Notes: generated by a model from the sequence alone, not told the origin. A stretch of 64,000 nt of DNA from an uncultured Maribacter sp. (GCF_947496775.1 NZ_CANMDU010000003.1:124001-188000), one strand, 5' to 3'. Numbered from the stretch's first letter, positions 13,619-58,549 are shown. Numbers and translations: made by a program.

Positions 13619-14315
13619 GTCCCAAATATCTATTATTATTCCTGTTTTAAATGAAGAGAAAAACATTGCTAAGCTATTAGATTTTCTTAGGAAGAACATC
13701 TCTAAAGCCAATTTAGTCAAAGAAATTATTATAGTGGATGGTGGCAGCACAGACAACTCTGTATCTATTGCTAAAGAAAATGGAGCAATAGTGGTTTCCT
13801 CTAAAAAAGGTAGAGCCGTACAAATGAATAGTGGTGCCAAAATAGCAACCGGAGATATTCTTTATTTTTTACATGTAGATACTTTTCCTCCTAAAAATTT
13901 TGATTTTTTTATTCATAAATCTATTTCTAAGAATAAAGAGTCTGGTTGTTTTAGGATGGCTTTTGATAGTAGTAATCTCTTTTTAAATTTCTTTGCTTGG
14001 TTCTCTAAACTTAATTATCAAATTTGCCGTGGAGGTGATCAATCCCTTTTTATTACCAAAAATTTATTCGCAAAAATTAATGGTTTTAATGAGGAATATA
14101 AGATTTATGAGGACAATGAAATTATAGAAAGAGTCTATGAGAATACTAAATTCGTTGTTCTCCCTCAAAAAGTAAAAACCTCCGCTAGGAGATATGAAGA
14201 AATAGGGTTTTACAGACTACAATTCTATTTTGGCATAATCCACTTTAAAAAACTTTTTGGGGCAAGCCCAGATAAATTGTACGATTTTTATCGTAGAAAA
14301 ATTGCTGCTAGTTAA
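13605..14315 (+). CDS. TIGR04283-type family 2 glycosyltransferase
   Basis: 236 residues, GT-A fold. SIIIPVLNEEKNI at the N-terminus, IIIVDGGSTDNS at about 43-54, YFLHVDTFPP as the metal-binding DxD-like block, and RGGDQSLF with EDNEIIER as the acceptor-side motifs. The family TIGR04283 is named for arsenosugar biosynthesis. Last gene of the arsenosugar-type operon; its final eight bases overlap the end of the oppositely oriented oxidoreductase. Confidence 0.85.
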   Translation: MKKNKSQISIIIPVLNEEKNIAKLLDFLRKNISKANLVKEIIIVDGGSTDNSVSIAKENGAIVVSSKKGRAVQMNSGAKIATGDILYFLHVDTFPPKNFDFFIHKSISKNKESGCFRMAFDSSNLFLNFFAWFSKLNYQICRGGDQSLFITKNLFAKINGFNEEYKIYEDNEIIERVYENTKFVVLPQKVKTSARRYEEIGFYRLQFYFGIIHFKKLFGASPDKLYDFYRRKIAAS

Positions 14316-15321
14316 TTTTAACTAATTGTTTTCCTATATTTTTCTTTTCAAACAAACGGTTTAATGCTACAGGCATGTTTTCTAAACCAATTAAAATATC
14401 TTCTTGATAGTTTAACTTTCCTTCCGTAATCCATTGCGACATTTCTTTTTCGGCTATATGAAAATCTTTTTCAAAATCGTAAATAAAAAACCCTTCCATT
14501 TTAGATCTTGTAGCGCCGATTCTATGCCAATTATTTAAAGGATAAACAGAGGCATCTTTGCCATCCAAATATTGCGAAATTCTACCACAACAAACCACTC
14601 TAGCGTATCTCCTTAACTTTGTTAAAGCAATATCTAACAAAGGGCCACCTACATTATCAAAATAAACATCAATACCTTCTGGAAAAAAGGCATCAATTTG
14701 TTCTCCTATATTTTCGCTATTGTAATTTATAGCTCCTATATAACCAAGTTTATTAACGAGTAATTTACATTTTTCATCTGTACTAGCAAAGCCCACTGCC
14801 CTTGCTCCTTTAATGGCTACCAAGCTTCCAACAGAAGAACCCACACCACCAGCAGCAGCAGAAACCAAAACGTTTTCTCCTTTTTGTAAAGCCCCAACTT
14901 TATATAAACCAAAATAAGAAGTAAAACCCGTCATACCCAAAACACCTAGAGCTGTAGAATAAGGTAAAATTCGCTGTTCTACTTTATACATCATATGATA
15001 CGGGCTACCGTCACATATAACATATTCTTGCCATCCACATTTTCCTTGCACTATATCTCCTACATTAAAATCGGCATGTTTACTTTCTACCACTTCTCCT
15101 ACTCCTCTGCCCCGCATAACATCTCCGATTTGCAATGGAGCTTCTATTCCTGCACCATCTAGCATATAAAATTTCATTACGGGAGCTACAGACAAATAGA
15201 GCACTTTAATTAAAAACTCCCCAGGTTTAATCTTAGGCAGTGAAACTTTTTCTAATGCAAAGTCTGTCTTCTTTATATAATCCGTTGGTCTAGAAGCAAG
15301 AACTAATCTTTTATTATACAT
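14308..15321 (-). CDS. NADP-dependent MDR oxidoreductase (prostaglandin/curcumin-reductase type)
   Basis: 337 residues. Medium-chain dehydrogenase/reductase without the structural zinc cysteines. VLVSAAAGGVGSSVG is the NAD(P)-binding loop, and FPEGIDVYFDNVGG is characteristic of the PTGR/CurA branch, which reduces C=C bonds conjugated to carbonyls. The MRGRGVG block near residue 90 is also typical. It is divergent from the amidohydrolase gene across a region holding a partial copy of the cluster's palindrome (15351-15365), so it may be the left edge of the accessory cluster. Confidence 0.85.
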   Translation of the reverse strand: MYNKRLVLASRPTDYIKKTDFALEKVSLPKIKPGEFLIKVLYLSVAPVMKFYMLDGAGIEAPLQIGDVMRGRGVGEVVESKHADFNVGDIVQGKCGWQEYVICDGSPYHMMYKVEQRILPYSTALGVLGMTGFTSYFGLYKVGALQKGENVLVSAAAGGVGSSVGSLVAIKGARAVGFASTDEKCKLLVNKLGYIGAINYNSENIGEQIDAFFPEGIDVYFDNVGGPLLDIALTKLRRYARVVCCGRISQYLDGKDASVYPLNNWHRIGATRSKMEGFFIYDFEKDFHIAEKEMSQWITEGKLNYQEDILIGLENMPVALNRLFEKKNIGKQLVKIN

Positions 15322-15350
15322 TTGAAGATTATTTATCTTATTATTTTTAG

Positions 15351-15365
15351 TTTAATTAAGTTAAC
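15351..15365. promoter_or_regulatory. Possible single copy of the cluster operator
   Basis: TTTAA-TTAAG-TTAAC: one arm is exact and the first base of the other arm differs from RTTAA-N5-TTAAY. It lies between the divergent oxidoreductase and amidohydrolase genes, 38 bases before the preferred start at 15403. No second tandem copy is present. Confidence 0.4.
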
Positions 15366-15402
15366 TAATCATTTTTATTCTTGCAACATTTACAAACAAA
15401 TT

Positions 15403-16821
15403 ATGTCTTACTTATCTAAGTACCTGTTCTTTATAACCTTCATATTACTTTCTTGTTCTTCTAATGAAGTTTTTTTTGAAAATGCTTTATGTATAGAAAA
15501 TATACATACAATAAACCCTATTGACGGTCTAAAAAAAAATCAAACAGTGATAATACAAGGAGGAAAAATTATTAAAATATCTCCCTCAAGAAACATTAAT
15601 TTATCCCAAAAAAACACCATAATAAATGGTACTGACAAATATCTTATCCCAGGTCTTTGGGATACCCATGTACATTATGCGTATATAGAAGAATTGGCTC
15701 CATTAATGTCTAACCTATTTTTAAAATACGGAGTTACTAGTGTAAGAGATACTGGTGGCAAAATAGATATTGTTAAAAAATGGAAAGATAGAGCTTTAGA
15801 TAATCCTCTCGAAGCTCCAAGAATATTAATGGCAGGTCCTCTTTTAGATGGTATTCCTACGGTTTATGATGGTAGCGATACTCGACTCCCCGAACTTGCG
15901 GTTGGCCTTAATTCTATAGAAGCGATTACAAAACAAATAGATTTTTTGGAAAGTCAAAAAGTTGACTTTTTAAAGGCTTATGAGATGTTGAGTCCGCAGC
16001 AATTTCATCATATCTTAAAAATAGCGAATGAAAAAGGGCTAAAAGTAACAGGGCACATACCATTAAGTATGGATGTGATAAGTGCGTCTAATGCCGGTCT
16101 GCACAGCATAGAACACATGCGTAATTTAGATTTATCTTGCGCTTCAAACTCCGATGAGTTATTACAGGAGCGGAGAAAAATGCTTGCAAATAACGCCAAC
16201 ATTTCCGGAGGAAGATTGCGTTCTAAAATCCATAAAATGCAACAAGAAAAAGCAATAGACAACTATGATGAAACTAAGGCCGACTCCATTTTATCTGTCC
16301 TAAAAAGAAATGATACTTGGCAAATACCCACCTTAGCATTAAATACTTTTTATACAAGAAGATATTTTGAAAGACCAGAATGGCAAGAAAGCTATTCCGT
16401 ATTACCAGATTCTATCCAACATCATTGGCTATCTAGAGCAGAAGCTTTAACCGAAATAGTCCCTTCTGAATTTCGAAAAAAATATGATATATGGCACATA
16501 AAAATGGTTAAGAAAATTCACGATGCCAATATTCCCATTATGGCAGGCACAGATACGCCTATTGCTTATTTAACGCCTGGACTAAGCTTACATGAAGAAC
16601 TTGCCTCCTTGGTAGATGCTGGTTTAACACCTTTAGAAGCCCTTAAAACTGCCACAACAAACCCTGCAAAATATTTTAATTTAGAAAAAGAACTTGGAAA
16701 AATTAAAGAAGGCATGTGGGCCGATTTACTAATTCTAAATGACAACCCACTCGTAAATATTAAGAATACTACTAAAATTAATACCGTTATAAAACAGGGG
16801 AAAGTTCATCTTAAAAACTAA
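15403..16821 (+). CDS. Amidohydrolase-family lipoprotein
   Basis: 472 residues from the ATG at 15403. I prefer this start over 15322 because it begins a clean lipoprotein signal (MSYLSKYLFFITFILLSCSS). The metal-dependent hydrolase motifs are PGLWDTHVHY (first His pair), FLKAYEM (bridging Lys), VTGHIPLS and SIEHMR (His ligands) and AGTDTPI (Asp). These proteins resemble imidazolonepropionase/prolidase-like hydrolases that open cyclic amides or cut C-N bonds. Envelope location and position beside the cluster suggest action on an imported ring compound, but the substrate is unknown. Confidence 0.82.
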   Translation: MSYLSKYLFFITFILLSCSSNEVFFENALCIENIHTINPIDGLKKNQTVIIQGGKIIKISPSRNINLSQKNTIINGTDKYLIPGLWDTHVHYAYIEELAPLMSNLFLKYGVTSVRDTGGKIDIVKKWKDRALDNPLEAPRILMAGPLLDGIPTVYDGSDTRLPELAVGLNSIEAITKQIDFLESQKVDFLKAYEMLSPQQFHHILKIANEKGLKVTGHIPLSMDVISASNAGLHSIEHMRNLDLSCASNSDELLQERRKMLANNANISGGRLRSKIHKMQQEKAIDNYDETKADSILSVLKRNDTWQIPTLALNTFYTRRYFERPEWQESYSVLPDSIQHHWLSRAEALTEIVPSEFRKKYDIWHIKMVKKIHDANIPIMAGTDTPIAYLTPGLSLHEELASLVDAGLTPLEALKTATTNPAKYFNLEKELGKIKEGMWADLLILNDNPLVNIKNTTKINTVIKQGKVHLKN

Positions 16822-16931: not shown

Positions 16932-17435
16932 ATGCTGCAAATTTTGTTCTTATTTAAATCTACTTCTTCAAAGAAAAATAATTACTTTTTTATACTAGCT
17001 ATAGCCGGTATTTTTCTTTTTACTTCATGTGGAGAAAAAAAAGAAAAAGAAACCTTCGAAATAAAAAATAAGAAAAAAGTAGAAAATGTAGATGCAGCCG
17101 ATAAAACGACATCGATAAAAACAAACTCTCTTGGAAAACGAATGTTTATAGCTTGTGCAGCTTGCCATAACTTAAAAAAAGGAGAAGCCCATAAAGTTGG
17201 GCCTAACTTATACGGAATTTTTGGCAAAAAATCTGCTACTACAGAAGGTTTTGAATACTCTGAAGCACTTAAAACATCTGAAATAACATGGAGCGAAGAA
17301 ACCATTCGTAAATGGATGCAAGATCCTGCAGGTTACGTTCCCCAAACAAAAATGGCTTTTGTTGGTATTAAAAAAGAAGAGCAGCAGACTGCTTTAATTG
17401 AATACCTTAAAGAAGAAACAAAAACAGAGGAATAA
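16932..17435 (+). CDS. Class I c-type cytochrome lipoprotein
   Basis: 167 residues. The signal ends in a lipobox (FTSC, Cys33). The haem site is CAACH (75-79), with Met141 in TKMAF as probable second axial ligand, giving a cytochrome c2/c550-like domain (about 65-163). As the first gene of a unit that encodes several exported flavin oxidases, it most likely carries their electrons to the respiratory chain (inference). The 32 residues before the lipobox Cys are longer than usual. No other in-frame ATG lies before the signal, so this start is the best available. Confidence 0.85.
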   Translation: MLQILFLFKSTSSKKNNYFFILAIAGIFLFTSCGEKKEKETFEIKNKKKVENVDAADKTTSIKTNSLGKRMFIACAACHNLKKGEAHKVGPNLYGIFGKKSATTEGFEYSEALKTSEITWSEETIRKWMQDPAGYVPQTKMAFVGIKKEEQQTALIEYLKEETKTEE

Positions 17436-17450: not shown

Positions 17451-18953
17451 ATGAAAACAAATAGAAGAAAGTTCATTCAAGGAATTGCAGGTGCATCGGC
17501 AGGATTAATATTACCCGTAAGTTGCACTACCAGTTCCAAAAAGGAATCGGCTTCTTCTAAAGCTCCTGCAATTCATATAAAAAATAAACCTGTTAAAGCC
17601 TCTCATGATGTTATTGTTGTTGGTGCAGGGCTTTCGGGTTTACACGCTGCTATGCTTTTAGAAGAATCCGGGTACGATGTGCAAGTAATTGAAGGAAGAC
17701 AAAGATTAGGTGGAAGAGTTTATACGCTGTTAGATGTTCCAGGAAAACCTGAAGCTGCCGGAGAATACATAGGTGCTAATTATGCTCGTATGATTAGTAC
17801 TGTTAATAAGCTTGGTTTAGAAATGTATAACCCCGAAGGAGGAGGCAATAATAGACCTTGGTTGTATAACATTAAAGGAAACTATATAGATGCTAAAAAC
17901 TGGGAATCTCATAAGTTAAACCCACTAGAGGGGGAAGACAGAACCTTATTACCTCATCGTTTTCTTTCTACCATATCGCACAGAGATAATCCTTTATCAG
18001 GAAAACCTTTAGATGCCTGGTTAGAACCAGAATTTCATAAGTACGATATTCCTCATGATCAATACCTTAGATCTAAAGGTGTAAATGAAGAAACTATTCG
18101 CTTAATGAATGTTGTTATACATTCTGGCGGAATGCACAGAACCTCTGCAATAAACGAACTACGCCGTTACCACGTAATGCATTTTAGTAATGGTAAAATT
18201 AGTTTTCCAGATGGTACAAACTGGAAAATGGTAAAAGGCGGAAACTCCTTACTACCAGAAGCCATGGCCGGGAGCTTAAAAAACGAACCTCATTTAGGTA
18301 AAACCGTAGTTGGTTTTAAAGAAGAAGATGGTATTGTACAAGTGAGTTGTGCCGATGGTAGTGAATATAAAGGAAAACAGGTAATTTGTAGCATTCCTAT
18401 TTCTGTTTTACGTAATGTAACTTTTGAACCACATATATCTGGGATTACCAAAGAGGCTATTGACCAAATGGATTATGGACTTTCTGTACAAGTACACTTT
18501 CTTGTTAAAGAACCTTTCTGGGAAAAAGATGGTATGGAAGCTAATATGTGGACAGATGGCCCATTAGAACGTTTTGCTGTGCGTACCAAAAGAAACAAAA
18601 CAGATCCAGATGCAGCAATTGCATATATAAACGGTCCAGAATCTAATAAATTTAGGCTAATGACAGATGAGCAAGTCTTTAATTATGTTGAAATAAAATT
18701 AGCGGAAATGAGACCTTCCACAAAAGGAGCTTTAGAACGGTTAATTATCCAATCCTGTGAAAGAGATGTTCATGGTGCTGGTGATTGGGTGTATTGGCAA
18801 CCTGGACAAGTAAAAAAGTTTGCTAATCACATGCGTAAGTCGCACGGAAATATTCATTTCTGTGGAGAGCATACAGCCATTATGGAAAGAGGAATGGAAG
18901 GTGCTTTTGAATCTGGAGAAAGAGCCGCTCTAGACATTATACTTAATGCTTAA
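17451..18953 (+). CDS. Tat-exported flavin amine oxidase family protein, paralogue 1
   Basis: 500 residues. RR5-6 followed by KFIQG is a twin-arginine signal and Cys25 (PVSC) a lipobox. GAGLSG (58-63) with a downstream acidic residue and RLGGRVYT form the FAD-binding site. HFCGEHTAIMERGMEGAFESGERAA near the end is the second flavin motif of the monoamine oxidase/phytoene desaturase superfamily. It removes hydride from C-N or C-C bonds; the substrate is unknown. It follows the cytochrome gene by 15 bases, a possible electron acceptor. Confidence 0.88.
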   Translation: MKTNRRKFIQGIAGASAGLILPVSCTTSSKKESASSKAPAIHIKNKPVKASHDVIVVGAGLSGLHAAMLLEESGYDVQVIEGRQRLGGRVYTLLDVPGKPEAAGEYIGANYARMISTVNKLGLEMYNPEGGGNNRPWLYNIKGNYIDAKNWESHKLNPLEGEDRTLLPHRFLSTISHRDNPLSGKPLDAWLEPEFHKYDIPHDQYLRSKGVNEETIRLMNVVIHSGGMHRTSAINELRRYHVMHFSNGKISFPDGTNWKMVKGGNSLLPEAMAGSLKNEPHLGKTVVGFKEEDGIVQVSCADGSEYKGKQVICSIPISVLRNVTFEPHISGITKEAIDQMDYGLSVQVHFLVKEPFWEKDGMEANMWTDGPLERFAVRTKRNKTDPDAAIAYINGPESNKFRLMTDEQVFNYVEIKLAEMRPSTKGALERLIIQSCERDVHGAGDWVYWQPGQVKKFANHMRKSHGNIHFCGEHTAIMERGMEGAFESGERAALDIILNA

Positions 18954-18963
18954 AACTAATTAT

Positions 18964-19971
18964 ATGAGACCCTATGCTACTTTAATTTTATTGGCAATCT
19001 GTAGTTTACAACTAACAATAGCTTCGCCAAATATAATTTTTGATTTAGGTGACCCAAATACCCGTGACCTAGAAGTTTTGGCAAATTGGTTTGAAGGCGA
19101 ATTTGATAATGACGATCAAATGTGGGTAGAAGCTCGTGGAGATTGGTGGGGAAAAGAGAATGAGAAACACCAACAAATGCACGCCATTCATAAAAGAGTA
19201 AAAGCAGATAGCATTGGAAACTTTGTTTTTTATGTGGAAGAATACCTTGATAATGACCAAACAAAAATTAGTAGACAAAGACTTGTCTCTTTTCATAGTT
19301 TAAAAGAGAAACCTGGTATTGCAATGAAAATTTATTTTTTAAAAGATGCCTCAAAATATGCTTTAGATTCTGACACGCACCAAACTATGATGAACACTAT
19401 TTCTAAAAAAAACCTTTTTGGATTAGATGGTTGCGATGTTATATTTCAAAGAAAAGGAGAGCAATACCACGGAAGTATGGAGAGCAAAGCCTGTCAATTT
19501 GGAAAAGGAAAAGAAAAAAGGTACTCCGTGCATGATATTATCTTGTCCGAAAAACAGTACTGGCGTGTAGATCGCACTTTTTTGGTTAAAGACGATTCGT
19601 TTCATAAAGGACATCCTAATGCAGAACCGCATAAAATGAAAAAAGTAAAATACTATACTTGCGATGTCTCTTTTTTTAAAACAGCTTATTATGTTCCAAG
19701 TGAAAAAGATAAAAGTTTTAAAAACTTAAAAGTACACAACCAAGGAGGCAAAGCTTCTATGGTAAACCCTATAAATGGAAAAACATACTATATTCAATTA
19801 AGAGATAAAGAATATCCTTTCTACAAACTAGAAGATTCTAATTTTTTCTTTCTACGTCTTAAAGAAGAAGGTCAAAAAGCATCAGTTGCTTTAGCTTTTG
19901 CAGAACCAAAAGCTAAAAAAATAGGCTTTCAGTTAGGTTGGGTTTCTGCAGTTTGCGAATGCGAAGAATAA
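18964..19971 (+). CDS. Exported CpcT/CpeT-like protein, paralogue 1
   Basis: 335 residues from ATG 18964 (MRPYATLILLAICS begins a signal peptide); ATG 18946, overlapping the previous stop, is an alternative six codons earlier. The middle (about residues 30-200) matches the bilin lyase family CpcT/CpeT: LANWFEGEFDN at the start, VFYVEEYLDN and SRQRLVSF in the centre and GCDVIFQRKGEQYHGSM later. That fold is a calycin barrel that binds phycobilins. A C-terminal extension of about 130 residues, shared with the gene at 39253, is not part of the cyanobacterial lyase. No phycobiliprotein genes are here, so chromophore binding or breakdown is likelier than attachment. Confidence 0.72.
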   Translation: MRPYATLILLAICSLQLTIASPNIIFDLGDPNTRDLEVLANWFEGEFDNDDQMWVEARGDWWGKENEKHQQMHAIHKRVKADSIGNFVFYVEEYLDNDQTKISRQRLVSFHSLKEKPGIAMKIYFLKDASKYALDSDTHQTMMNTISKKNLFGLDGCDVIFQRKGEQYHGSMESKACQFGKGKEKRYSVHDIILSEKQYWRVDRTFLVKDDSFHKGHPNAEPHKMKKVKYYTCDVSFFKTAYYVPSEKDKSFKNLKVHNQGGKASMVNPINGKTYYIQLRDKEYPFYKLEDSNFFFLRLKEEGQKASVALAFAEPKAKKIGFQLGWVSAVCECEE

Positions 19972-19991
19972 CACCTACTAAAAATATAGCC

Positions 19992-20897
19992 ATGATTCTA
20001 AAAAAAAATAATAATCTACTAAAATTAATATTTGGTTTATTCGCCAGTATTCTGCTTTTTAATTGCACCCCAAAAGAAACTCCAGAAAAGACAGAAGCTA
20101 TTCTGGCTAAAACTGCAATGGCCTATGACCTTAATAGCCCTATAGATCAGCTTTTAATTTTTGAAAAAATGCAAGGGGATCTTTCTGGTAAAATGACCTA
20201 TTCGTACTCCGAAGGTCGTGTTTTTGGTATACGACCAGACAAACCAGATAGCCTTAATGTATTTGGTAAAGAAGTATTTAGATATTCTGGTTGTGGAATG
20301 AAAATTATGCGCCTTTTAGAAAATGGAAATATCGAAACAAAATCTAAAGGTTGGTTACTTTATAGAGATCCAAAAACCGGAGAATTTTTAAGTGAAATGA
20401 CCAACCCTTATACAGGTGAATTAGTTGAAGTACCTGCTTTTAGAGCAGGAATTCGCGGCGGAATCATGACCCCTGAAGGTCCTATAGTAGATGCCAATTT
20501 CACTATGGAAAGTACCGCATTTGGAGCTCCTCTTAACTTAGAATTTACGGAAATAGGGAATAAAGTTCATATTACTCGGCACGCTTTTACAAAATGGTTC
20601 GAAAAAAAATCGCAAACATGGAGAACTGAAATGACCTTAGATACTTATGATGTAGATAAAAAATACTTAACAGATAGGTCTTTAACTCACATACCATCGG
20701 AATACCATTGGACTAGTGAAACCTCTTGGCTTTCCATCTTAAAAATGCATGGAACTCCAGGGCACATGATATGGACTTCTAGTGGTGGCACTCTTTTTAA
20801 TAAAGAAGATTTACCTAAAGATTTTATAGCAGCCACAGAAGAAAAACAACCAGACATTTTCGGAGAAGAACTAAAATGGGAAGAAAATGAAAAATAA
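19992..20897 (+). CDS. DUF1838 lipoprotein, paralogue 1
   Basis: 301 residues from ATG 19992, chosen because it begins a lipoprotein signal (lipobox LFNC); an ATG at 19938 would overlap the previous gene. The body fits DUF1838: NPYTGE about a third of the way in, a long beta-rich middle and a tryptophan-rich block near the end (SWLSILKMHGTPGHMIW). The function of DUF1838 is unknown. The gene is followed by an amine oxidase whose start overlaps it by 11 bases, and it comes right after a CpcT-like gene, a pairing that recurs twice on the other side of the cluster. Confidence 0.75.
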   Translation: MILKKNNNLLKLIFGLFASILLFNCTPKETPEKTEAILAKTAMAYDLNSPIDQLLIFEKMQGDLSGKMTYSYSEGRVFGIRPDKPDSLNVFGKEVFRYSGCGMKIMRLLENGNIETKSKGWLLYRDPKTGEFLSEMTNPYTGELVEVPAFRAGIRGGIMTPEGPIVDANFTMESTAFGAPLNLEFTEIGNKVHITRHAFTKWFEKKSQTWRTEMTLDTYDVDKKYLTDRSLTHIPSEYHWTSETSWLSILKMHGTPGHMIWTSSGGTLFNKEDLPKDFIAATEEKQPDIFGEELKWEENEK

Positions 20898-24872: not shown

Positions 24873-24882
24873 AATAAAAAAC

Positions 24883-26479: not shown

Positions 26480-26489
26480 TCCTTTTGTT

Positions 26490-48429: not shown

Positions 48430-48432
48430 ATA

Positions 48433-48744
48433 CTATGCTATTTGTTCTGAAATAATAAACATTGGGCTATCGGCAAATTTTTGAAACTCTACAGCAACTT
48501 TTTGCATGGTTTCGGAGGTTACTTCTTCACCTAATTTTGTCATATCATTAATTTCTAATACTTCGCAATATTGAAAAGGAGATGCATTATTAGTACCCAT
48601 AATAGTTCCTAGTTTAAATACTTTAAAGGAATCTACAGAAGACATATTAGAAGCCGTAGGAACATCTGTAGTTTGCGCCCATTTTTCATATGCCTCCATA
48701 GAGGCATCGTTTTTTAAGTTGAATAAAACTACTAAAGCTGCCAT
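48433..48744 (-). CDS. HapK/RedY-like protein (dimeric alpha-beta barrel)
   Basis: 103 residues, no signal. Starts MAALVVLFNLKND with EAYEKWAQTTDVPTASNM, SVDSFKVFKL, YCEVLEINDM, and ends with a strand. This is the order of the REDY/HapK family, a ferredoxin-like dimeric barrel known from gene clusters for prodiginine (tripyrrole) biosynthesis. Its biochemical role there is not well defined. Its presence here, with CpcT-like genes, hints at a pyrrole-related substrate. An alternative is a generic Dabb/EthD-type protein, since all share the fold. Confidence 0.65.
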   Translation of the reverse strand: MAALVVLFNLKNDASMEAYEKWAQTTDVPTASNMSSVDSFKVFKLGTIMGTNNASPFQYCEVLEINDMTKLGEEVTSETMQKVAVEFQKFADSPMFIISEQIA

Positions 48745-49578: not shown

Positions 49579-50103
49579 CTATTCTATTGGTTCGCCATTT
49601 GCTATCTTTTCTCGAACATAATTCATTAAACCTCCAGCATCGCCAACCTCAGCAACAAATGGAGCTGCTGGAACGGACTGAAAAGAAGTTCCTTTAGTTA
49701 TGTTTGTTATTATACCCGTTTCCGGGTTATACTCTAGCTCATCTCCAGTTTCACACCCCTTATCTATATCATCACAAGTAACAAATGGTAGCCCATAGTT
49801 TATAGCATTACGAAACTGTAATCTTGCAAAACTTGTTGCAAAAACAGCTTGTACACCGGCTCCCATAAGCCCTGTAATAACATGCTCAATAGATTTACCG
49901 CCACCAGCAAAATTATGAGCCGCAACAATAAAAGTGAAGCCTTCATCCTTAAAGGCGTTTTCTTTGTTAAACTCTTCTTTTACACCTGCCATTACCCATT
50001 TACTGTTTTCCGCAGCATCTATTGCCGATGTCCAATATTCCTGAATGATAATATCGTAGGCCATTACGTAATCATCTGCTACCCAACATTTTCCTTTTAT
50101 CAT
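49579..50103 (-). CDS. LeuD-type hydro-lyase small subunit
   Basis: 174 residues, the size of 3-isopropylmalate dehydratase small subunits. WVADDY at the start, AAHNFAGGGKSIEHV and TSFARLQFRNAINYGLPFV are the swivel-domain motifs. It pairs with the large subunit encoded at 51470. The absence of leuA/leuB and the neighbouring aldolase point to a substrate other than isopropylmalate, for example a substituted maleate as with 2,3-dimethylmalate dehydratase (DmdAB). The subunit genes are separated by a flavin oxidase gene, which is unusual. Confidence 0.87.
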   Translation of the reverse strand: MIKGKCWVADDYVMAYDIIIQEYWTSAIDAAENSKWVMAGVKEEFNKENAFKDEGFTFIVAAHNFAGGGKSIEHVITGLMGAGVQAVFATSFARLQFRNAINYGLPFVTCDDIDKGCETGDELEYNPETGIITNITKGTSFQSVPAAPFVAEVGDAGGLMNYVREKIANGEPIE

Positions 50104-51469: not shown

Positions 51470-52738
51470 TTACAGGCTTAGTGTTCTAGGGTCTGTAATT
51501 ACCCCTGTTAATGCTGATGCAGCTACTACACTCGGAGATGTTAAATATATTTCTGCTTTTTTACTACCCATACGTCCGGTCATATTTCTATTTCCCGCAC
51601 TAAGTACAATATCGCCATCGCCAGCAACACCAGTATGTATACCAGCACACGCAGCACAGCTAGGGGTATCTACAGCTACTCCTGCTTCTACCAATGTTTC
51701 TATATATCCTGCACGTAAAGCTTCTAAATAAACTGTTTGACTTGCTGGAACTAGAATCATATTTATGTCTCTATGTACTTGTTTGTCTTTTAAAATTTTA
51801 GCTATAGTAGCTATATCTTCTAATCTACCGTTGGTACATGTCCCTACAAAAGCTTTATTAAATTTGGTGCCAATAAGTTTTTCTACAGGAACAGTATCAT
51901 CTAATTTTCCTGGCAGAGCTACTGTTGGACCTAAATCGGAAATATCTATAGTATACACCTGATCGTATTCTGCGTCATCATCACTAGCAATCATATCCCA
52001 ATCCCCAATTGCGCGATCTTTTAAATATCTTTGGGTTATTGCGTCTGGAGCTATAATTCCATTTTTTGCTCCTAAATCTACTGTCATATTACACAAAGTC
52101 ATTCTCCCTGCCATACTAAGACTCTCAATTGCCGGACCCGTAAACTCTAATGCTTTATACAAAAGATGTCCGTTCCAATGCATCATACCCATAATATGCA
52201 GACTTAAATCCTTGGCCATTACCCAAGGTTGCCAGGTTCCAGTAATATGAAATTTAACCGATTTTGGCACTCTAAACCAAGCTTTCCCGGTTGCCATTGC
52301 AACAGCTGCATCTGTAACCCCTATTGCATTACCTACCGCTCCAGCTGCACCATAAGTATTCGCATGAGAATCCGTACCAATACTGATTGTACCAGGAAGT
52401 ACATGACCTTGCTCTACCATGATTTGATGAGCAATACCTTGTCTTCCTAAATCATAAAAATTAGTAATATCATGCTGCTTTACAACCTCTCGCCACTCAT
52501 TTAACATGGTGGCAAATTTTTGATTTGGCGGAGGAACCAAGTGATCCGACACACAAATTACTCTATCCTTATTAAAAACCTCTGTTTTACCAAGAGATCT
52601 AAATTTATCAAAACAAGTTTTACCCAGATAATCCATTGTCATAACAGTATGAACATTTGTCCATACAAGTTCTCCCGGCACTACATGATCTCTTCCGCTA
52701 TTGCGGGCCATAATTTTTTCAGTAATGGTCATTCCCAT
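51470..52738 (-). CDS. Aconitase-family (LeuC-type) hydro-lyase large subunit
   Basis: 422 residues. TDSHANTYGAAGAVGNAIG (about 122-140) and the three [4Fe-4S] cysteines Cys301 (GTCTNG), Cys361 and Cys364 (SCAACAG) are visible. Shorter than E. coli LeuC (about 466) and more like the two-subunit homoaconitase/dimethylmalate dehydratase group. It would add water to an unsaturated dicarboxylate. Follows the 171-residue protein by 40 bases and ends six bases before the oxidase. Confidence 0.88.
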   Translation of the reverse strand: MGMTITEKIMARNSGRDHVVPGELVWTNVHTVMTMDYLGKTCFDKFRSLGKTEVFNKDRVICVSDHLVPPPNQKFATMLNEWREVVKQHDITNFYDLGRQGIAHQIMVEQGHVLPGTISIGTDSHANTYGAAGAVGNAIGVTDAAVAMATGKAWFRVPKSVKFHITGTWQPWVMAKDLSLHIMGMMHWNGHLLYKALEFTGPAIESLSMAGRMTLCNMTVDLGAKNGIIAPDAITQRYLKDRAIGDWDMIASDDDAEYDQVYTIDISDLGPTVALPGKLDDTVPVEKLIGTKFNKAFVGTCTNGRLEDIATIAKILKDKQVHRDINMILVPASQTVYLEALRAGYIETLVEAGVAVDTPSCAACAGIHTGVAGDGDIVLSAGNRNMTGRMGSKKAEIYLTSPSVVAASALTGVITDPRTLSL

Positions 52739-52778: not shown

Positions 52779-53294
52779 TTATATATCCGATCTAGACTCT
52801 TTTCCATTGGTTCTAATATTGGGTAATTCTTCCCAAAATTTAGGGTCAATATCGTCCTGTGAACCTACTTTTCTCTCTTCTATCATGGTAATCCCATTGA
52901 AAGTGTCATTCTCCGACCACTTCCATACTCTTATCCTATGATCATCATTACCTATTAAATCTATTTGCTCAAAAAGCGTCATCCCGGGCTTGTGCTTATA
53001 ATCCCATATAAGTACTACACTCCTTCCTGTTTCCCATGCTTTTCCAGATAATCTTGGGTTTTCGAAAATTAATTCTCCCTTGTCATTAAAATTGCAAATT
53101 CCAAAGTCTAAACACTCTTCAAAACCATCATCCCAGAAGTATTGGTTTACTTGATGATACCTTCCATCTGGCATTATCCTAATAGTTAAGCGACTTTTCC
53201 ACTCTTGTATTAGCTTTCCGTCGGCTCCAATTCTCTTGTACGTTCCTTCCCAAATCCCTGTATGTTTAGGAAATAATTTTAATTCATAACTCAT
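52779..53294 (-). CDS. DUF3598-like (calycin-type) protein
   Basis: 171 residues without a signal peptide. FPKHTGIWEGTYKRIGADGKLIQEW at the start, then alternating strands GRYHQVNQYFWDDGFEECLDFG and WKWSENDTFNGITMIEER, resemble the DUF3598 family, a lipocalin/calycin-like barrel. CpcS- and CpcT-type bilin lyases have related folds, so this may be another small-molecule-binding barrel of the pathway. The similarity is by pattern only. It is the first gene of the leftward unit; its start is 51 bases from the operator at 53345. Confidence 0.55.
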   Translation of the reverse strand: MSYELKLFPKHTGIWEGTYKRIGADGKLIQEWKSRLTIRIMPDGRYHQVNQYFWDDGFEECLDFGICNFNDKGELIFENPRLSGKAWETGRSVVLIWDYKHKPGMTLFEQIDLIGNDDHRIRVWKWSENDTFNGITMIEERKVGSQDDIDPKFWEELPNIRTNGKESRSDI

Positions 53295-53386: not shown

Positions 53387-54028
53387 TTATTTTTCTACAT
53401 TAATTTTGTCCTGAGGCTCATTAAATTCTACTAAAAAACCATCTGGGTCATAAAAAATACTGACCTTAACACGTATAACCCCTTTACCATCATAAGAAGG
53501 ATATTCTCTTAATGTTGGCGCGGTTATAATTTCTACCCCTGCCGTGTTTTTAATTTTTTCAAATCTTCCTTCCAAATCATTCGTATTAAATAGCAAGACA
53601 GAGTTTTGCGCAGTAAATCCTTCTTTTCGAATTGGCTTTATAAATTTGCTTGGATCATTGTAAGAATACTCCATAAGACCCAAAACCCCGTAATAGCTAT
53701 TAATTGCCTTAAGAAACACTAGTCTTACTTCGTGATCTTCGTCTTTTTCTGGATGCTTACGAATTAATATTTTATCGTAAATAATTTCCATACCAAGAAC
53801 GTCTTGGTATAGCGCTAATGATTTTTTAATATCTCTTACAATTAATGTTGTTCTTCTAAAGACTAGAGGGTAATCTTCTATTTTAAAATCTTGATTAGTT
53901 TCTTTTACTACTTCCTGTTTCCACTGTATACTGCCCTTATCTTCTTTTTTACCAGTGCAAGCCGTAATTGTTAAAAAAAATACAACAGCAATAAATCGAA
54001 ATTTACAATTCTCTATTAATACGCCCAT
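53387..54028 (-). CDS. VOC-family lipoprotein
   Basis: 213 residues. Lipobox ITAC (Cys about 24) after a hydrophobic signal, a lysine-rich linker, then one VOC module: FRRTTLIVRDIKKSLALYQDVLGMEIIY to DPDGFLVEFNEPQ. The last-strand Glu (VEF) is present, but the first-strand ligand is Thr, so the metal site is incomplete as in the other small VOC proteins. Its own unit: its start is 76 bases from operator site 5 and it is followed by operator site 4. Confidence 0.78.
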   Translation of the reverse strand: MGVLIENCKFRFIAVVFFLTITACTGKKEDKGSIQWKQEVVKETNQDFKIEDYPLVFRRTTLIVRDIKKSLALYQDVLGMEIIYDKILIRKHPEKDEDHEVRLVFLKAINSYYGVLGLMEYSYNDPSKFIKPIRKEGFTAQNSVLLFNTNDLEGRFEKIKNTAGVEIITAPTLREYPSYDGKGVIRVKVSIFYDPDGFLVEFNEPQDKINVEK

Positions 54029-54361: not shown

Positions 54362-55621
54362 ATGAATTTTTCTAACCTTAAAGAATTTAAATTTGGCTGG
54401 CCTGTTATCCTTTCTTCAACTTTTGGAATTGGTTTAGGCATGTCGCCATTACCATTTTATACTATTGGTGTTTTTGCTATTCCTCTATCCAAAAATTTTG
54501 GTTGGGGTATGGATACAGTTATGGGCGGACTTACGGTTTTTACCTTAGCAGCATTAATTGCCAGTCCTTTAATTGGATACATTGCGGATAAAGTTAGTGC
54601 TAGAAAAACCGCCATGTTATCACTATTATTGTTTGGAATATCCTTCATTGCTTTTAGTTTAAATACTGGATCAAAAGCTTTATACTATACTTTGTGGGGC
54701 GTAATGGCATTTGCAGGTGCAGGAACCTTACCTATGACTTGGACAAGAGTAATAAACAATTGGTTTAATGAAAATAGAGGTTTAGCCCTTGGCCTTTCCC
54801 TATTAGGAACCGGATTATTTGGTGCCTTTGCCAAACTATATGCTTTTTCGTTAATTGAAAATTTTGATTGGAAAACAGCTTATTTAGGAGTTGGCTTACT
54901 ACCTATACTTATTGCTTTACCAATAGCCTTCTTCTTTTTTAGAGATGTAGATGACCCTAAAGTTGCCAAAAAATTAAAGAAATTAAAAGACGAAGTGCCC
55001 AGCCATGCTACGATTACGAAATCTGGTTTAACGGTAAAACAAGCCCTTAAAGATTGGAGATTCTGGCTACTTGCATTTTGCTTTATTCTTATTTCTTTTG
55101 CCGTTGGAGGCCCAATACCAAATTTAGAAAATTTGCTTTCAAATAAAGGCTTCAACACTGGAGATGCCGTTGTTTTAGCAAGCATCATAGGATACTCTGT
55201 ATTAATGGGGCGATTATTAGGCGGATATTTACTAGATCGTTTCTGGGCTCCTGCCGTAGCTTTTATTTTGTTAAGTATTCCGGCTATATCTTGTTATATT
55301 TTACAAGGTGCAGATTTAACTTATACTAATGCACTCATCGCTGTAGTAATTTTAGGCTTCGGAGCTGGGGTGGAGTATGATCTTATGGCCTATTTAGTTT
55401 CTAGGTATTTTGGAATGAAGAATTACGCTGCAATTTATGGGTTTTTATATGGTTTTTTTGCATTTGGAGCAGGCTTTGGCCCTGTGATTTTCGGTAAGTT
55501 CTTTGCATCCACTGGTAGTTATGATTCTATTTTACATTATGCTATGATAGCATTTTTAGTAGGTTCTTTTCCTTTATTACTTCTTGGAAAATACAGAAAT
55601 TTTGATGTGGAGAAAAAGTAG
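54362..55621 (+). CDS. MFS transporter (organic-anion type)
   Basis: 419 residues with about 12 helices. FAIPLSKNFGWGMDTVMGG and IGYIADKVSARKTAML carry the MFS loop motif, and TWTRVINNWFNENRGLALGLSLLGTG is typical of the oxalate/formate antiporter and related monocarboxylate families. It begins the rightward unit after operator site 5 and is followed, after five bases, by a second MFS gene of another subfamily. Probable uptake or exchange of pathway acids. Confidence 0.87.
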   Translation: MNFSNLKEFKFGWPVILSSTFGIGLGMSPLPFYTIGVFAIPLSKNFGWGMDTVMGGLTVFTLAALIASPLIGYIADKVSARKTAMLSLLLFGISFIAFSLNTGSKALYYTLWGVMAFAGAGTLPMTWTRVINNWFNENRGLALGLSLLGTGLFGAFAKLYAFSLIENFDWKTAYLGVGLLPILIALPIAFFFFRDVDDPKVAKKLKKLKDEVPSHATITKSGLTVKQALKDWRFWLLAFCFILISFAVGGPIPNLENLLSNKGFNTGDAVVLASIIGYSVLMGRLLGGYLLDRFWAPAVAFILLSIPAISCYILQGADLTYTNALIAVVILGFGAGVEYDLMAYLVSRYFGMKNYAAIYGFLYGFFAFGAGFGPVIFGKFFASTGSYDSILHYAMIAFLVGSFPLLLLGKYRNFDVEKK

Positions 55622-55626
55622 TCAAA

Positions 55627-56886
55627 GTGATGAAAGCTACAAAAAATCTTCGCTGGTGGATTGTTGCTACCATTTTTTTGGCTACCACTATAAACTATAT
55701 TGATAGACAAGCACTTTCTGTTGCTGCACCTGTTATACGCGAAGATTTAAATTTATCTAACGAACAATATAGTTGGATTGTAAGTTCTTTTTTACTTGCG
55801 TATACCATTATGCAAATAGTTTCTGGTAGATTAATAGATATACTAGGTACAAAAAAAGGCTTTACTATTTCTATTATTTGGTGGTCTATTGCCAATATGT
55901 TACACGCTTTTGGAACTGGTATATTAAGCCTAGGCATTTTTAGATTTTTACTTGGCATGGGAGAAGCAGGCAATTACCCAGCAGGTATGAAAGCTATATC
56001 GGAATGGTTTCCTAAAGAAGAACGAAGTAAAGCAGTTGGTATACTAAATATGGGTCCTGGTTTTGGGGCAATTATTGCACCTCCGTTACTTGTCTGGTTA
56101 ATTTTAACCTTTGGATGGAAATTGTCTTTTGTTATTACTGGAGCATTGGGATTTTTGTGGTTAGTTTTATGGAGGGGCATATATTATACACCCGAAAATC
56201 ATCCGAAAATTACTAATGAAGAATTAGAATTAATTCTAAAAAAGGAAAAAGACAATTTTCAAAAAGAACAATCCCCTTGGTTAAGTTTTTTTAAACATAA
56301 AGAGGTTTGGGGACTTGCACTGTCTAGATTCGTGTCTGACGGCGCTTTTTATTTTTTTGTATTCTGGTTGCCATCCTGGTTGGCAGATGTAAAAGAATTT
56401 AGTTTAACAGAAATTGGAATGTTCGCTTGGATTCCTTTTCTTTTTTCTGATATAGGGAGCTTTGTTGGAGGCTGGACAGGAGAAAAACTAATTGCCAATG
56501 GGATGTCTTTAAATGCTTCAAGAAAATGGGTGCTTTGGATTGGGGCCATTCTTGTAGTTCCGGTATTAGGCTGCCTTTATGTACAATCCCCATATGTAGC
56601 CATAGGTTTAATTAGTATCTCTTTATTTGCTACGCAGTTTAAGCAATCTTCTTTATTTACTTTACCAATTGATATTTTCTCTAAAAAAGATGCTGCTTCC
56701 GTTTGGGGAATTTCAGGATCCGCAGGTAGTTTAGGGGCTATGTTATTTACACCAGTAATTGGTTGGCTAGTAGATACCATTTCCTATGCTCCCGTTTTTA
56801 CAATTGTTGCATTTCTACATATTATTTCGGCCATTTTGGTAATGGTCTTTATTCCCAATATTAAACGCATTCCTAATCTATCATAA
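55627..56886 (+). CDS. MFS transporter (anion:cation symporter type)
   Basis: 419 residues. TINYIDRQALSVAAPVI at helix 1, SGRLIDILGTKKGFTISI (loop 2-3) and GMGEAGNYPAGMKAISEWFPKEERSKAVG in helix 4-5 are the marks of the ACS family (hexuronate, galactonate, phthalate transporters). It therefore likely imports an organic acid with protons. Its last base overlaps the first of the oxidoreductase gene. Confidence 0.88.
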   Translation: MMKATKNLRWWIVATIFLATTINYIDRQALSVAAPVIREDLNLSNEQYSWIVSSFLLAYTIMQIVSGRLIDILGTKKGFTISIIWWSIANMLHAFGTGILSLGIFRFLLGMGEAGNYPAGMKAISEWFPKEERSKAVGILNMGPGFGAIIAPPLLVWLILTFGWKLSFVITGALGFLWLVLWRGIYYTPENHPKITNEELELILKKEKDNFQKEQSPWLSFFKHKEVWGLALSRFVSDGAFYFFVFWLPSWLADVKEFSLTEIGMFAWIPFLFSDIGSFVGGWTGEKLIANGMSLNASRKWVLWIGAILVVPVLGCLYVQSPYVAIGLISISLFATQFKQSSLFTLPIDIFSKKDAASVWGISGSAGSLGAMLFTPVIGWLVDTISYAPVFTIVAFLHIISAILVMVFIPNIKRIPNLS

Positions 56887-57887
56887 TGAATAAACAACTT
56901 GTAATACACAAATTTTCAGAATATATACAGGAGGCATCTAGTATTATAGAAACCCCTATTCCTAAAATAAAAGCATCACAAATTTTAATCAAAAATAAAT
57001 TTTTAGGTATCAATGCTATTTACGACCGGGAGCTTTATAAAGGAAAAATACCATATATAAACGTTCAATTTCCATATGTTTTTGGCGTAGAAGCCGTTGG
57101 TATTGTAGTTGAGGTTGGTAGTAATATTACCAATGTAAAAATTGGAGATGCAGTATCTACCGTAAAAGTTGGTACCGCCTATCAAGAATATCAAATAATT
57201 ACCAAAGAAGAAGTTGTTAAAATTCCAGAACCTACTGCCGAATATTTAACTCTTAACCCAACCGGTGTTTCTGCTTATTTAGCTATAAAAAACACCGCAG
57301 AATTAAAAAACGGAGAAACCATTGTTGTTTCTGCTGCTTCGGGTGGTTTAGGACATATTGTAGTGCAACTTGCTAAACAAAAAAACTGCCATGTGGTTGC
57401 TATTTGCGGCAAACCGGAAAAAGAAAATCTACTGAAGAATTTAGGTTGCTGCGACCGCATTATTAACTATAATAAAGAAGATTTAATAACCGTTTTAAAC
57501 AAAGAATATACTAATAAAATAGATGTAGGCTTTGACTCCGTTGGCACTTACATGTTTGATGCTTTTTTACAAAACTTAGCACCCTTAGGTCGTTTAGTAG
57601 TTAGTGGTTTAGCAACAGAGTTAACTGCTCCAGAATTTGAGCAAGTACATGGCCCTAGAGTATATGAAAGTATCTATTGGAAAGGAGCTTCTGTCCGTTG
57701 TTTTATGAATCATTTGTACAAGGAACAACACCCAGAAGCACGTAATTATCTATTCCAATTATATCAGGAAGGTAAGCTGCAAGTTAAGGTAGATTCCACC
57801 TTATTTAAAGGAATTGAATCTATTACTACTGCATCGGAATATTTACTGGCAGGAAAAAGTTGCGGTAAAGTCGTTGTTGCTCTTTAA
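56886..57887 (+). CDS. MDR-family quinone oxidoreductase
   Basis: 333 residues. GVEAVGIVVEVGSNI and TIVVSAASGGLGHIVVQLAKQ are the substrate and NADPH loops of the zinc-free quinone oxidoreductase branch. KIDVGFDSVGTYMFDAFL is the later cofactor block. Likely an enone or quinone reductase. One-base overlap with the upstream MFS gene; 14 bases to the flavodoxin-like gene. A second MDR gene, 14308, lies at the other end of the cluster. Confidence 0.85.
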   Translation: MNKQLVIHKFSEYIQEASSIIETPIPKIKASQILIKNKFLGINAIYDRELYKGKIPYINVQFPYVFGVEAVGIVVEVGSNITNVKIGDAVSTVKVGTAYQEYQIITKEEVVKIPEPTAEYLTLNPTGVSAYLAIKNTAELKNGETIVVSAASGGLGHIVVQLAKQKNCHVVAICGKPEKENLLKNLGCCDRIINYNKEDLITVLNKEYTNKIDVGFDSVGTYMFDAFLQNLAPLGRLVVSGLATELTAPEFEQVHGPRVYESIYWKGASVRCFMNHLYKEQHPEARNYLFQLYQEGKLQVKVDSTLFKGIESITTASEYLLAGKSCGKVVVAL

Positions 57888-57901
57888 CAAAAAAAAACAC
57901 T

Positions 57902-58549
57902 ATGAATATACTAATTGTACATGCTCATGAAAATGCAGATTCCTTTTGTTCTGCTCTAGCCAATATTGCTAAATCTACTTTTGAAAAAGAAGGTTATGAG
58001 GTAACTATATCCGATTTATATAAAAAGAATTTTAACCCCGTTGGCGGTAAACACGATTTTAAAAAGATTTCCGATGCTTCTTATTACAAATATGCTTCGG
58101 AGCAAATACATGCACAGCAAAATAATTTGTTTTCGGATGATTTAAGAGAAGAAATGGAACTTTTGAGCAAGGCCGATGTTCTTATTTTTAATTTTCCTCT
58201 TTGGTGGTTTAGTATGCCAGCAATACTAAAAGGTTGGGTGGATCGCGTGTTAGCCTATGGCTATGCCTACGGAGGAGATTACGGTTTTTACGATAAAGGT
58301 AGGTTTAGCGGAAAAAAAGCGTTTTTATGCGTAACCACGGGTAGTCCCGCGAATTTTTACACAGAAACTGGATCGCATGGAAGAACTTTAGCTGCTATTT
58401 TAAAAAACATTCATCAAGGCATTTTAGGGTTAATAGGATTTGAAGTCTTACCCGATTTTGTAGCATATGGAGTATCTAGAATAACCGATGTTGAGCGGAA
58501 AACAATTTTAGAAAATTATATGACCTATATTCAAAAAAACTTTCAATAA
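57902..58549 (+). CDS. Flavodoxin-fold NAD(P)H:quinone oxidoreductase
   Basis: 215 residues. HAHENADSFCSALA at the N-terminus and FNFPLWWFSMPAILKGWVDRVLAYGYAYG (FMN loop and helix) show the NQO1/KefF/MdaB type. It binds FMN and reduces quinones or nitro/azo bonds with two electrons. It ends the rightward unit and converges on the 239-residue gene with 22 bases between. It could regenerate or detoxify a coloured oxidised intermediate (inference). Confidence 0.88.
   Translation: MNILIVHAHENADSFCSALANIAKSTFEKEGYEVTISDLYKKNFNPVGGKHDFKKISDASYYKYASEQIHAQQNNLFSDDLREEMELLSKADVLIFNFPLWWFSMPAILKGWVDRVLAYGYAYGGDYGFYDKGRFSGKKAFLCVTTGSPANFYTETGSHGRTLAAILKNIHQGILGLIGFEVLPDFVAYGVSRITDVERKTILENYMTYIQKNFQ

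Follow-up and report, generated by a model that had tools for sequence, protein, structure and literature searches.

What might about seventy adjoining genes in an uncultured Maribacter sp. do together, and on which compound would they act? The genes lie in and beyond a stretch of 64,000 nucleotides (GCF_947496775.1 NZ_CANMDU010000003.1:124001-188000), here called the window, whose positions are counted from its first letter; coordinates past 64,000 continue this numbering on the same contig, and + or - after coordinates denotes the strand. The cluster measures about 74 kb, from 14308 in the window to at least 88300, its last 24 kb lying beyond the window. We consider it probable that this is a mosaic, two-compartment catabolic cluster that would convert a nitrogen ring compound to pyruvate, a reading that builds on observed gene content, gene order, co-occurrence, signal patterns and residues, from which the reaction steps are inferred.

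In the proposed pathway, flavin oxidoreductases of the twin-arginine translocation (Tat) type would oxidise and fragment the nitrogen heterocycle outside the inner membrane and pass electrons to cytochrome c, with CpeT, DUF1838 and VOC proteins possibly serving as binding or helper proteins. Carriers of the MFS family would import the fragments, which a methyltransferase with a 117-residue partner, an SDR dehydrogenase, a HapK-like protein and a reductase binding flavin adenine dinucleotide (FAD) might then adjust. HyuAB in one arm, and two PuuE-like hydrolases with a maleamate-amidase-like enzyme in the other, would open imides or lactams to alkyl-maleate-type diacids, to which LeuCD enzymes would add water. 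An HpaI-type aldolase, or a CaiB coenzyme A (CoA) transferase together with an HMG-CoA-lyase-type enzyme, would cleave the product to pyruvate and an acid or acyl-CoA, and the cluster's own AceE and E2 would oxidise the pyruvate. By homology only, the series imide, half-amide, maleate, malate, malyl-CoA, and pyruvate plus acyl-CoA would be complete on paper; the lower half appears coherent, and a maleimide substituted with methyl and a second group R would fit every step.

The firm part of the pathway is the opening of a cyclic amide, because three unrelated ring-opening families are found, in different loci, beside one and the same gene pair. To survey distant relatives, the methyltransferase was scanned against one genome per species, which gave 157 relatives; the best 80 of the 157 loci were used, and neighbours were counted within 10 kb of the methyltransferase, many contigs being shorter than that. 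The 117-residue protein accompanies the methyltransferase in 77 of the 80 loci, followed by the SDR (61), HapK (58), SnoaL (45), HyuB (45), HyuA (41), LeuC (39), LeuD (37), HpaI (36) and the FAD reductase (30). HyuB is found in no proteobacterial locus; CE4 proteins, the family of the PuuE-like hydrolases, occur in 26 loci (20 by stricter clustering), all of them from Proteobacteria or from the deltaproteobacterial locus; and an AllB-like cyclic amidohydrolase occurs in two, which are both cyanobacterial. No locus holds two of these three families within 10 kb, and seven of the 80 hold none. The opening of a cyclic amide or imide, proposed in the initial annotation, is upheld by these separate associations, together with a PuuE-like pair and an amidase further right in the Maribacter cluster.

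Inside the window, the N, middle and C domains of HyuA (45431-47503, -) and the domain of HyuB (42300-43916, -; 478 bits) are all present (Pfam PF05378, PF01968, PF19278 and PF02538). With the caprolactamase alpha and beta models the two score 560 and 206 bits against equivalog cut-offs of 1000. HyuA reaches only 337 bits with acetophenone carboxylase, and its best solved relative is N-methylhydantoinase; judged by sequence, the pair is nearer to caprolactamase and N-methylhydantoinase than to carboxylases. An acetone- or acetophenone-type carboxylase is disfavoured both by these scores and by the window Pfam results, which contain no extra carboxylase subunit.

This kinship raises the question of whether the cluster acts on a cyclic ureide (a hydantoin, a dihydropyrimidine or a creatinine-like compound), with HyuAB and the isochorismatase acting as in the catabolism of N-methylhydantoin to N-carbamoylsarcosine. 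The Maribacter isochorismatase (76645; family search and solved-structure matches) finds its best solved relative in the N-carbamoylsarcosine amidohydrolase 26st, just ahead of 4l07/4l08, which speaks for such a substrate as much as the best relative of HyuA does, and the PuuE- and AllB-like proteins carry allantoin names. The two CE4 proteins (77376 and 78313) have PuuE allantoinase as their nearest relative, at 100 and 109 bits against the TIGR03212 equivalog cut-off of 425; they appear related to PuuE, and their substrate may differ. The counterpart of the isochorismatase on the sphingomonad plasmid pJE1 is nearest to 4l07/4l08, the first of which we take to be the S16 maleamate amidase, and this tells against a ureide. 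Moreover, cyclic ureides yield amino acids, and their use does not need LeuCD, HpaI, CaiB with an HMG-CoA lyase, or a dedicated pyruvate dehydrogenase, all of which would be superfluous here. We therefore regard a cyclic ureide as improbable.

The enzymes that would carry the opened ring to pyruvate are distributed over two arms. The window arm comprises the HpcH/HpaI-type aldolase (48813-49574, -; HpaI model 156 of 369 bits), a LeuD-like small subunit (49579-50103, -) and a LeuC-like large subunit (51470-52738, -). The right arm holds an aldehyde dehydrogenase (70317), a protein of the HMG-CoA-lyase family (71841; NF004283 subfamily, 293 bits against a cut-off of 246, catalytic residues judged by eye), LeuC2 (72773), LeuD2 (74005; LeuD/DmdB model TIGR02087, 199 bits against 109), a CMD protein (74518), the CaiB CoA transferase (75079), a DUF4440 protein (76262), the isochorismatase and the CE4 pair, all from family searches. 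Pyruvate would be received by a dihydrolipoyl acyltransferase (E2; 59982-61277, -) and by AceE, a homodimeric pyruvate dehydrogenase E1 (61298-63964, -; TIGR00759, 1225 bits against a cut-off of 860). The hydratase and lyase route to pyruvate suggested by the initial annotation thus gains support by homology, with a pyruvate dehydrogenase of the cluster's own. Its DmdAB-type hydratase has to be moved: the window LeuD is without the GSSREH motif, and it is the second LeuCD, beyond the window, that resembles DmdAB.

The same enzymes bear on whether the cluster serves to synthesise or detoxify a compound instead of feeding on it. Four MFS transporters, a methyltransferase and SnoaL-, HapK- and PvdO-like proteins, which are frequent in biosynthesis, would suit that role; the aldolase, the HMG-CoA-lyase-type enzyme and the dedicated aceE and E2 indicate carbon use, and the window proteins scanned with Pfam gave no match to a polyketide or peptide synthase, so that we consider it very improbable.

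Do these genes belong together? Close relatives were sampled as 119 genomes, with a wider sample of 295 genomes across the class, the threshold being E <= 0.001 for DUF1838 in the source genome and E <= 1e-100 for aceE in the relatives. In the class-wide sample DUF1838 occurs in one genome of 295, namely the source genome; in the closer sample it occurs in six of 119, namely the source genome, four of seven Maribacter congeners and a single genome outside the genus. The methyltransferase, aceE, the PuuE-like CE4 and the isochorismatase are each found in the same six. Weak DUF1838 members (28 bits) escaped the genome search, and the DUF1838 counts in relatives may therefore miss such members. 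Stretches fetched from the five carrier relatives were compared gene by gene with the window's 49 genes between 14308 and 63964, and reciprocal best matches numbered 46 in G301, 39 in G297, 42 in G295, 46 in G299 and 36 in G327, at 49-100% identity; 33 of the 49 genes are matched in all five, and gene order is kept. Reciprocal matches in the same order in five carriers mean that the cluster is no chance assembly, and the loss of co-localisation in relatives that the initial annotation had named as the outcome that would speak against it did not occur.

The comparison also locates the variable parts and the boundaries. Most often missing are flavin oxidase 2 (20887) and the VOC protein at 53387, each from all five relatives, and the RidA-like protein (27773), from three; 26932, 28438, 58572, 59301 and oxidase 4 are each missing from two of the five, and G327 is also without the cytochrome c, oxidase 1, CpeT 1, PvdO-like and quinone reductase genes. 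On the left, the boundary at 14308 is supported because the tested genes left of it were not found in the G327 stretch; the first gene, an MDR oxidoreductase (ADH_N_2; 14308-15321, -), is the leftmost in common with that genome. On the right, the initial annotation had ended the cluster at 58549. The cluster itself is real, and the families named within 14308-58549 are borne out by Pfam in the numbers given, but that right boundary was wrong: E2 and AceE, present in five of five relatives, belong to it, and so probably do two proteins without family (239 residues, and 220 residues and membrane-like; 58572-59963, -), which lie past the earlier span, are present in three of five relatives and show 46% and 32% identity to neighbouring proteins of the pJE1 cluster. 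Because homologues of 84537-87843 were found in other methyltransferase loci, the right end is placed at or beyond 88.3 kb.

Beyond the close relatives, the methyltransferase shares about 50% identity with proteins encoded on eight sphingomonad plasmids; oxidase 4 matches six Novosphingobium plasmids and DUF1838 seven, six accessions being common to the lists of all three. On pJE1 the neighbours include LeuCD (twice), CaiB, HMG-CoA lyase, HapK, SDR, the 117-residue protein, the FAD reductase, MDR, HyuA, HyuB, the isochorismatase, two CE4 proteins and an ICL/PEP-mutase protein, a type of protein also found in Novosphingobium KACC 22771 and in locus L113. The 80 loci come from Flavobacteriaceae, Saprospiraceae, Cytophagales, Chitinophagales, two cyanobacteria, Alpha- and Gammaproteobacteria and one deltaproteobacterial genome. 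In a methyltransferase tree of 47 rows (the window and 46 loci), Bacteroidota fall on one side (branch 99/95), next to the cyanobacteria, and the two Alteromonadaceae stand apart from the other Proteobacteria, which suggests that, at the depth of the tree, the methyltransferase has for the most part remained within phyla. An Alteromonas locus (L105) carries isochorismatase, CE4b, CE4a, LeuC and LeuD consecutively, and between Maribacter and Alteromonas the identity is 78-79% for the isochorismatase and CE4b, compared with 51% for the methyltransferase; the former value argues for recent transfer between phyla, and hence for a mosaic.

Such unequal histories also invite the view that there is no single pathway, only independent catabolic modules accreted at one site. 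The contrast between the 78-79% identity and the methyltransferase, whose tree keeps Bacteroidota together, would fit accretion, as would the carriers that lack parts of the left arm. It sits poorly with the 21-kb stretch of a member of the Saprospiraceae (L072) in which HyuAB, the methyltransferase, HpaI, the HMG-CoA-lyase protein, CaiB and a single second-type LeuCD pair stand together, with the recurrence of like sets on Novosphingobium plasmids, and with the five tested genes in the same six of 119 genomes. We judge accretion quite improbable and retain a single catabolic cluster of mosaic origin.

The upper part of that cluster appears to act in a different compartment from the lower. Family assignments within 14308-58549 are from Pfam, and Tat and lipobox motifs from a pattern scan. 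Tat or lipoprotein-type patterns mark much of the upper set, and the HyuAB/LeuCD/HpaI set is without them except for the Tat oxidase at 50114, in agreement with the two compartments first proposed. An RR motif lies near the N-terminus of all four Amino_oxidase-fold proteins (oxidase 1, 17451-18953, +; oxidase 2, 20887-22377, +; oxidase 3, 22379-23875, +; oxidase 4, 50114-51463, -), and the Tat pattern appears in 34 of the 35 oxidases aligned; oxidase 3 is one of the two compared with MAO-B. A lipoprotein-type cytochrome c (16932-17435, +) adjoins oxidase 1, and a cytochrome c homologue also lies near a flavin oxidase on the Novosphingobium plasmids L034 and L036; the Tat flavin enzymes are probably dehydrogenases that hand electrons to the adjoining cytochrome. 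Oxidase 2 probably arose from oxidase 3 by local duplication, because it has no reciprocal match in the five relatives and its best match is the same as that of oxidase 3. A scheme of four oxidases for four pyrrole rings was ruled out on account of this apparent duplicate.

Three CpeT-like proteins (CpeT 1, 18946-19971, +; CpeT 2, starting at 33604, -; CpeT 3, 39253-40341, -) pass the PF06206 cut-off of 21 at 77, 61 and 53 bits respectively, and one of the three has a lipoprotein-type pattern. The CpeT proteins of the cluster are divergent, scoring 48-100 bits, compared with 142-159 bits for those of seven cluster-less relatives. Homologues occur in 26 of the 80 methyltransferase loci by BLAST clustering, and one from the proteobacterial group was confirmed by Pfam. 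Four relatives (L012 in G301, L017 in G297, L018 in G295 and L022 in G299) have an extra CpeT gene, the strongest of the cluster set at 94-100 bits, which in G297 sits between MFS and MDR genes; a genome search found no matching copy in the Maribacter genome under study.

CpeT is known for its association with bilins, and a tetrapyrrole derivative (a bilin, phyllobilin, or haem or chlorophyll fragment) might be the growth substrate of the same lower pathway, with the vinyl- or ethyl-methyl imide handled by one arm and hematinic acid, the propionate-methyl imide, by the other. In nature, the oxidative cleavage of tetrapyrroles is a well-known origin of methyl- and R-substituted maleimides. For bilirubin, 4-methyl-3-vinylmaleimide is reported as an oxidation product (PMC5997574). 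The cluster's three CpeT proteins and its DUF3598 protein, the hint from CpeT homologues in 26 of 80 loci, and two arms holding two LeuCD pairs and two lyases between them would agree with such a substrate, and methyl- and R-substituted maleimides would suit cleavage to pyruvate and acyl-CoA. Set against these are the weaker scores of the cluster's CpeT proteins, the Pfam scan of window proteins, in which no haem-oxygenase-, Rieske- or bilin-reductase-type enzyme was matched, and the fact that two arms are not universal, the Saprospiraceae locus having a single LeuCD pair of the second type. The bilin-like starting compound favoured by the initial annotation finds no support in the divergent CpeT proteins, in flavin enzymes devoid of MAO hallmarks or in the GGKSIEH motif of the window LeuD, and a tetrapyrrole substrate is a tentative possibility. 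Of much the same, slightly lower likelihood is the wider claim that this would be the first described bacterial mineralisation of tetrapyrroles, in which Tat flavin oxidases and lipocalin-like proteins would yield methyl-maleimides, two arms would convert these to pyruvate and acyl-CoA, and transfer would have helped to spread the pathway among marine Bacteroidota, Alteromonas and sphingomonads.

A genome search for DUF1838 found three genes, all within the cluster (a, lipoprotein-type, 19938-20897, +; b, the strongest match at 228 bits, 36353-37252, -; c, with a Tat motif, 38323-39249, +), and two weak members lie right of the window (65465 and 80149; 28 bits each, cut-off 25). The model of protein b is predicted to be beta-rich (predicted local distance difference test, pLDDT, 88); its fold gave no confident function, the best match having E 0.001 and the template modelling (TM) score by query length staying below 0.3 throughout the 50 matches listed, and its sequence had no match in the PDB. 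On the Calothrix, Streptomyces and Novosphingobium P6W plasmids, where many genes are unnamed, annotation showed no HyuAB, LeuCD or CpeT in the DUF1838 neighbourhoods. The Streptomyces plasmid gene (L029) has MFS, VOC and SDR genes nearby and is flanked by class III lanthipeptide genes and gas vesicle genes, a setting from which it follows that the family is not confined to the proposed pathway. In G297, one DUF1838 copy (G297:C1:217960-218670) contains an internal TGA and may for this reason be decaying.

The class I S-adenosylmethionine-dependent methyltransferase (41110-42294, -), by its model and fold search, is predicted to combine the class I fold with a conserved, mostly helical N-terminal domain, and it has invariant residues; the fold matches are only to generic class I methyltransferases, MitM and RebM among many, and give no function. 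Its near-constant partner of 117 residues, without family, follows at 40745-41098 (-), and a SnoaL-like protein (40326-40745, -) adjoins it in 45 of the 80 loci. Three Novosphingobium plasmids (L039, L040 and L036) bear extra paralogous pairs, which share about 34-37% and 26-30% identity with the window pair and lie near DUF1838 or flavin oxidase genes, from which the pair seems to be a working unit that exists in several versions. In two cyanobacteria (L073 and L074; UBA8803 and a Nostoc) the methyltransferase, 117-residue and SnoaL genes lie on short contigs with the AllB-like amidohydrolase, UBA8803 having DUF3598-type and aldehyde dehydrogenase genes in addition.

Some of these upper proteins would serve equally well for another nitrogen heterocycle, such as a flavin or lumichrome, pyridine, indole or lactam natural product, entering the same lower route. 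The PvdO-like protein, the Tat flavin oxidases adjoining cytochrome c, and MitM and RebM among the many fold matches of the methyltransferase could be read this way, and methylated aromatic rings can also be expected to yield methylated maleates. Ring-cleaving dioxygenases were not among the enzymes identified, and the seven VOC/glyoxalase proteins (23880, 26042, 26490, 32588, 35299, 37265 and 53387) were assigned by fold family only; we consider such a substrate rather unlikely.

Several observations weigh against the proposed catabolic cluster itself and have to be set beside its support. The six carriers span two genera, so that their co-occurrence shows strong linkage and not six independent events, and the methyltransferase's own count in the 80 loci is uninformative because the loci were chosen by it. 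HyuAB and CE4 do not strictly exclude each other: both are present in a single cluster in Maribacter, on pJE1 and in Novosphingobium KACC 22771, and in L113 a HyuA match accompanies CE4. Relatives vary in the lyase near the methyltransferase, and for this reason their substrates may differ. Matches of HyuAB, HpaI, PvdO and the PuuE-like proteins all fall under the substrate-specific (equivalog) cut-offs. In the window LeuD and in 36 of 37 clustered relatives, GGKSIEH stands where GSSREH is expected, whereas GSSRE is kept in seven of seven proteobacterial LeuD proteins of the other cluster and in LeuD2 (FGCGSSREQ). In aconitases the serine of this motif serves as the base and its arginine as the carboxylate-binding residue; with the aconitase-type motif lost, the window LeuCD probably acts on another substrate and may carry out another reaction. 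Among the flavin enzymes, the active-site Lys of MAO (in MAO-B numbering, Lys 296, with Tyr 435 and Cys 397) is found in none of 35 aligned oxidases, which have 31 Gln, 2 Ile and 2 Met, the alignment being less sure for the last four; in the two window oxidases, out of four, that were aligned to MAO-B, the cage Tyr position is gapped and the FAD-binding Cys missing. Finally, a clear role is wanting for the methyltransferase, the 117-residue protein, HapK and DUF1838, and no result points out a substrate. Weighing these points, we still hold a catabolic cluster that feeds a nitrogen ring compound to pyruvate to be probable.

The remaining genes complete the inventory. The left arm includes an amidohydrolase with a lipoprotein-type N-terminus (15322-16821, +), a VOC protein (23880-24872, +), a lipoprotein-type carbon-nitrogen hydrolase (24865-26016, +) and two VOC proteins (26042-26924, +), then a variable part with a rhodanese and the RidA/YjgF-like protein (26932-28354, +; not in some relatives) and a class I aminotransferase (28438-29493, -; no match in G297 and G327). 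Two MFS transporters (29513 and 30794; 29513-32023, -) are followed by a 191-residue protein without family, a VOC protein and CpeT 2 (32013-34323, -), by a PvdO/FGE-like protein (PvdO model 209 of 500 bits), a VOC protein and a peroxiredoxin (34347-36335, -), and by a further VOC protein (37265-38221, -). Between HyuB and HyuA lies the FAD_binding_2 reductase or dehydrogenase (44001-45428, -; flavocytochrome c family, 220 of 285 bits), and beyond HyuA the SDR dehydrogenase and HapK-like protein (47596-48744, -). A DUF3598 protein (52779-53294, -), a lipoprotein-type VOC protein (53387-54028, -), two MFS transporters (54362 and 55627; 54362-56886, +), and an MDR/quinone-reductase-like protein (56886) with a flavodoxin-fold quinone reductase (57902; 56886-58549, +) follow.

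Beyond the window, family searches identified a TonB/SusC-type receptor (66786; 150 of 368 bits), a VOC protein (69632), an SBF transporter (79247), a hydrolase (83348) and a C-N hydrolase (86732). BLAST added a VOC-like protein (64306; BLAST only), two SDR-like proteins between 80149 and 82582, and an MDR protein (84537); the proteins at 82582 and 85550 have no family, and a regulator-like protein (87843) was named by eye. Right of the cluster, at about 88387-91917 (L127; G000:C3:206001-224000), lies a biotin-dependent carboxylase-like set that could use propionyl-CoA, one subunit scoring 787 bits with TIGR01117, under the cut-off of 999, and the other two recognised by eye. Left of the unit are a tRNA-Phe (8862-8935) and a gene block (9881-14315) in which 13605 matched glycosyltransferase 2; three cluster-less Maribacter keep genes matching 9881, 10379, 11047, 12896 and 13605 left of the site, in compared loci of only 3.8 kb that stop short of the junction.

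In the open-licence literature searched, no description of this gene set was found among the matches listed, and nothing related was found for pJE1. For DUF1838, the paper listed concerns an antibiotic cluster; for HapK/REDY-like proteins, the matches listed, PMC4609964 among them, were nearly all unrelated; the literature searched did not lead to a named substrate. The size and spread of the cluster, across Bacteroidota and Proteobacteria with a small part in two cyanobacteria, point to a widespread substrate whose bacterial sink is unnamed. The locus gives a context to DUF1838, to the methyltransferase and its 117-residue partner, and to the CpeT proteins of heterotrophs, and the question of which organisms consume chlorophyll- and haem-derived bilins becomes testable, given that Maribacter vaceletii DSM 25230, a type strain in culture, has the cluster.

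The step types are known singly, and their combination would constitute a pathway without description among the matches listed from that literature. CpcT/CpeT bilin lyases share with the window proteins a Pfam CpeT match above cut-off; unlike them, the window copies are divergent, several, and in one of three cases lipoprotein-type, and the window Pfam results hold no phycobiliprotein. NicA2 and CycN represent a type of Tat flavin amine dehydrogenase with cytochrome c as acceptor, and the window likewise has a Tat-type Amino_oxidase-fold enzyme adjoining a cytochrome c, differing in Gln for the MAO active-site Lys and in the missing aromatic-cage Tyr. With CapAB and HyuAB, that is, caprolactamase and N-methylhydantoin amidohydrolase, the window pair has in common the three-domain HyuA and the HyuB architecture and is closer to them than to carboxylases, yet it remains far under the caprolactamase equivalog cut-offs. 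The lower pathways of nicotinate and nicotine employ a maleamate amidase and the dimethylmaleate hydratase DmdAB with its lyase; here, an isochorismatase that may be maleamate-amidase-like, a LeuD/DmdB-family small subunit in the second LeuCD and a lyase expected to give pyruvate are alike, whereas the results contain no nicotinate-specific match, the window LeuD is without GSSREH and the lyases are of the HpaI or CaiB/HMG-CoA-lyase type. In known cyclic-imide catabolism, as in degraders of maleimide and succinimide, an imidase, a half-amidase and a malate hydratase act in turn, and the same reaction order of ring opening, half-amide hydrolysis and hydration would hold in Maribacter, with PuuE-like CE4 proteins and HyuAB in the place of the imidase, LeuCD-type hydratases and pyruvate-forming lyases thereafter, and a far larger cluster around them.

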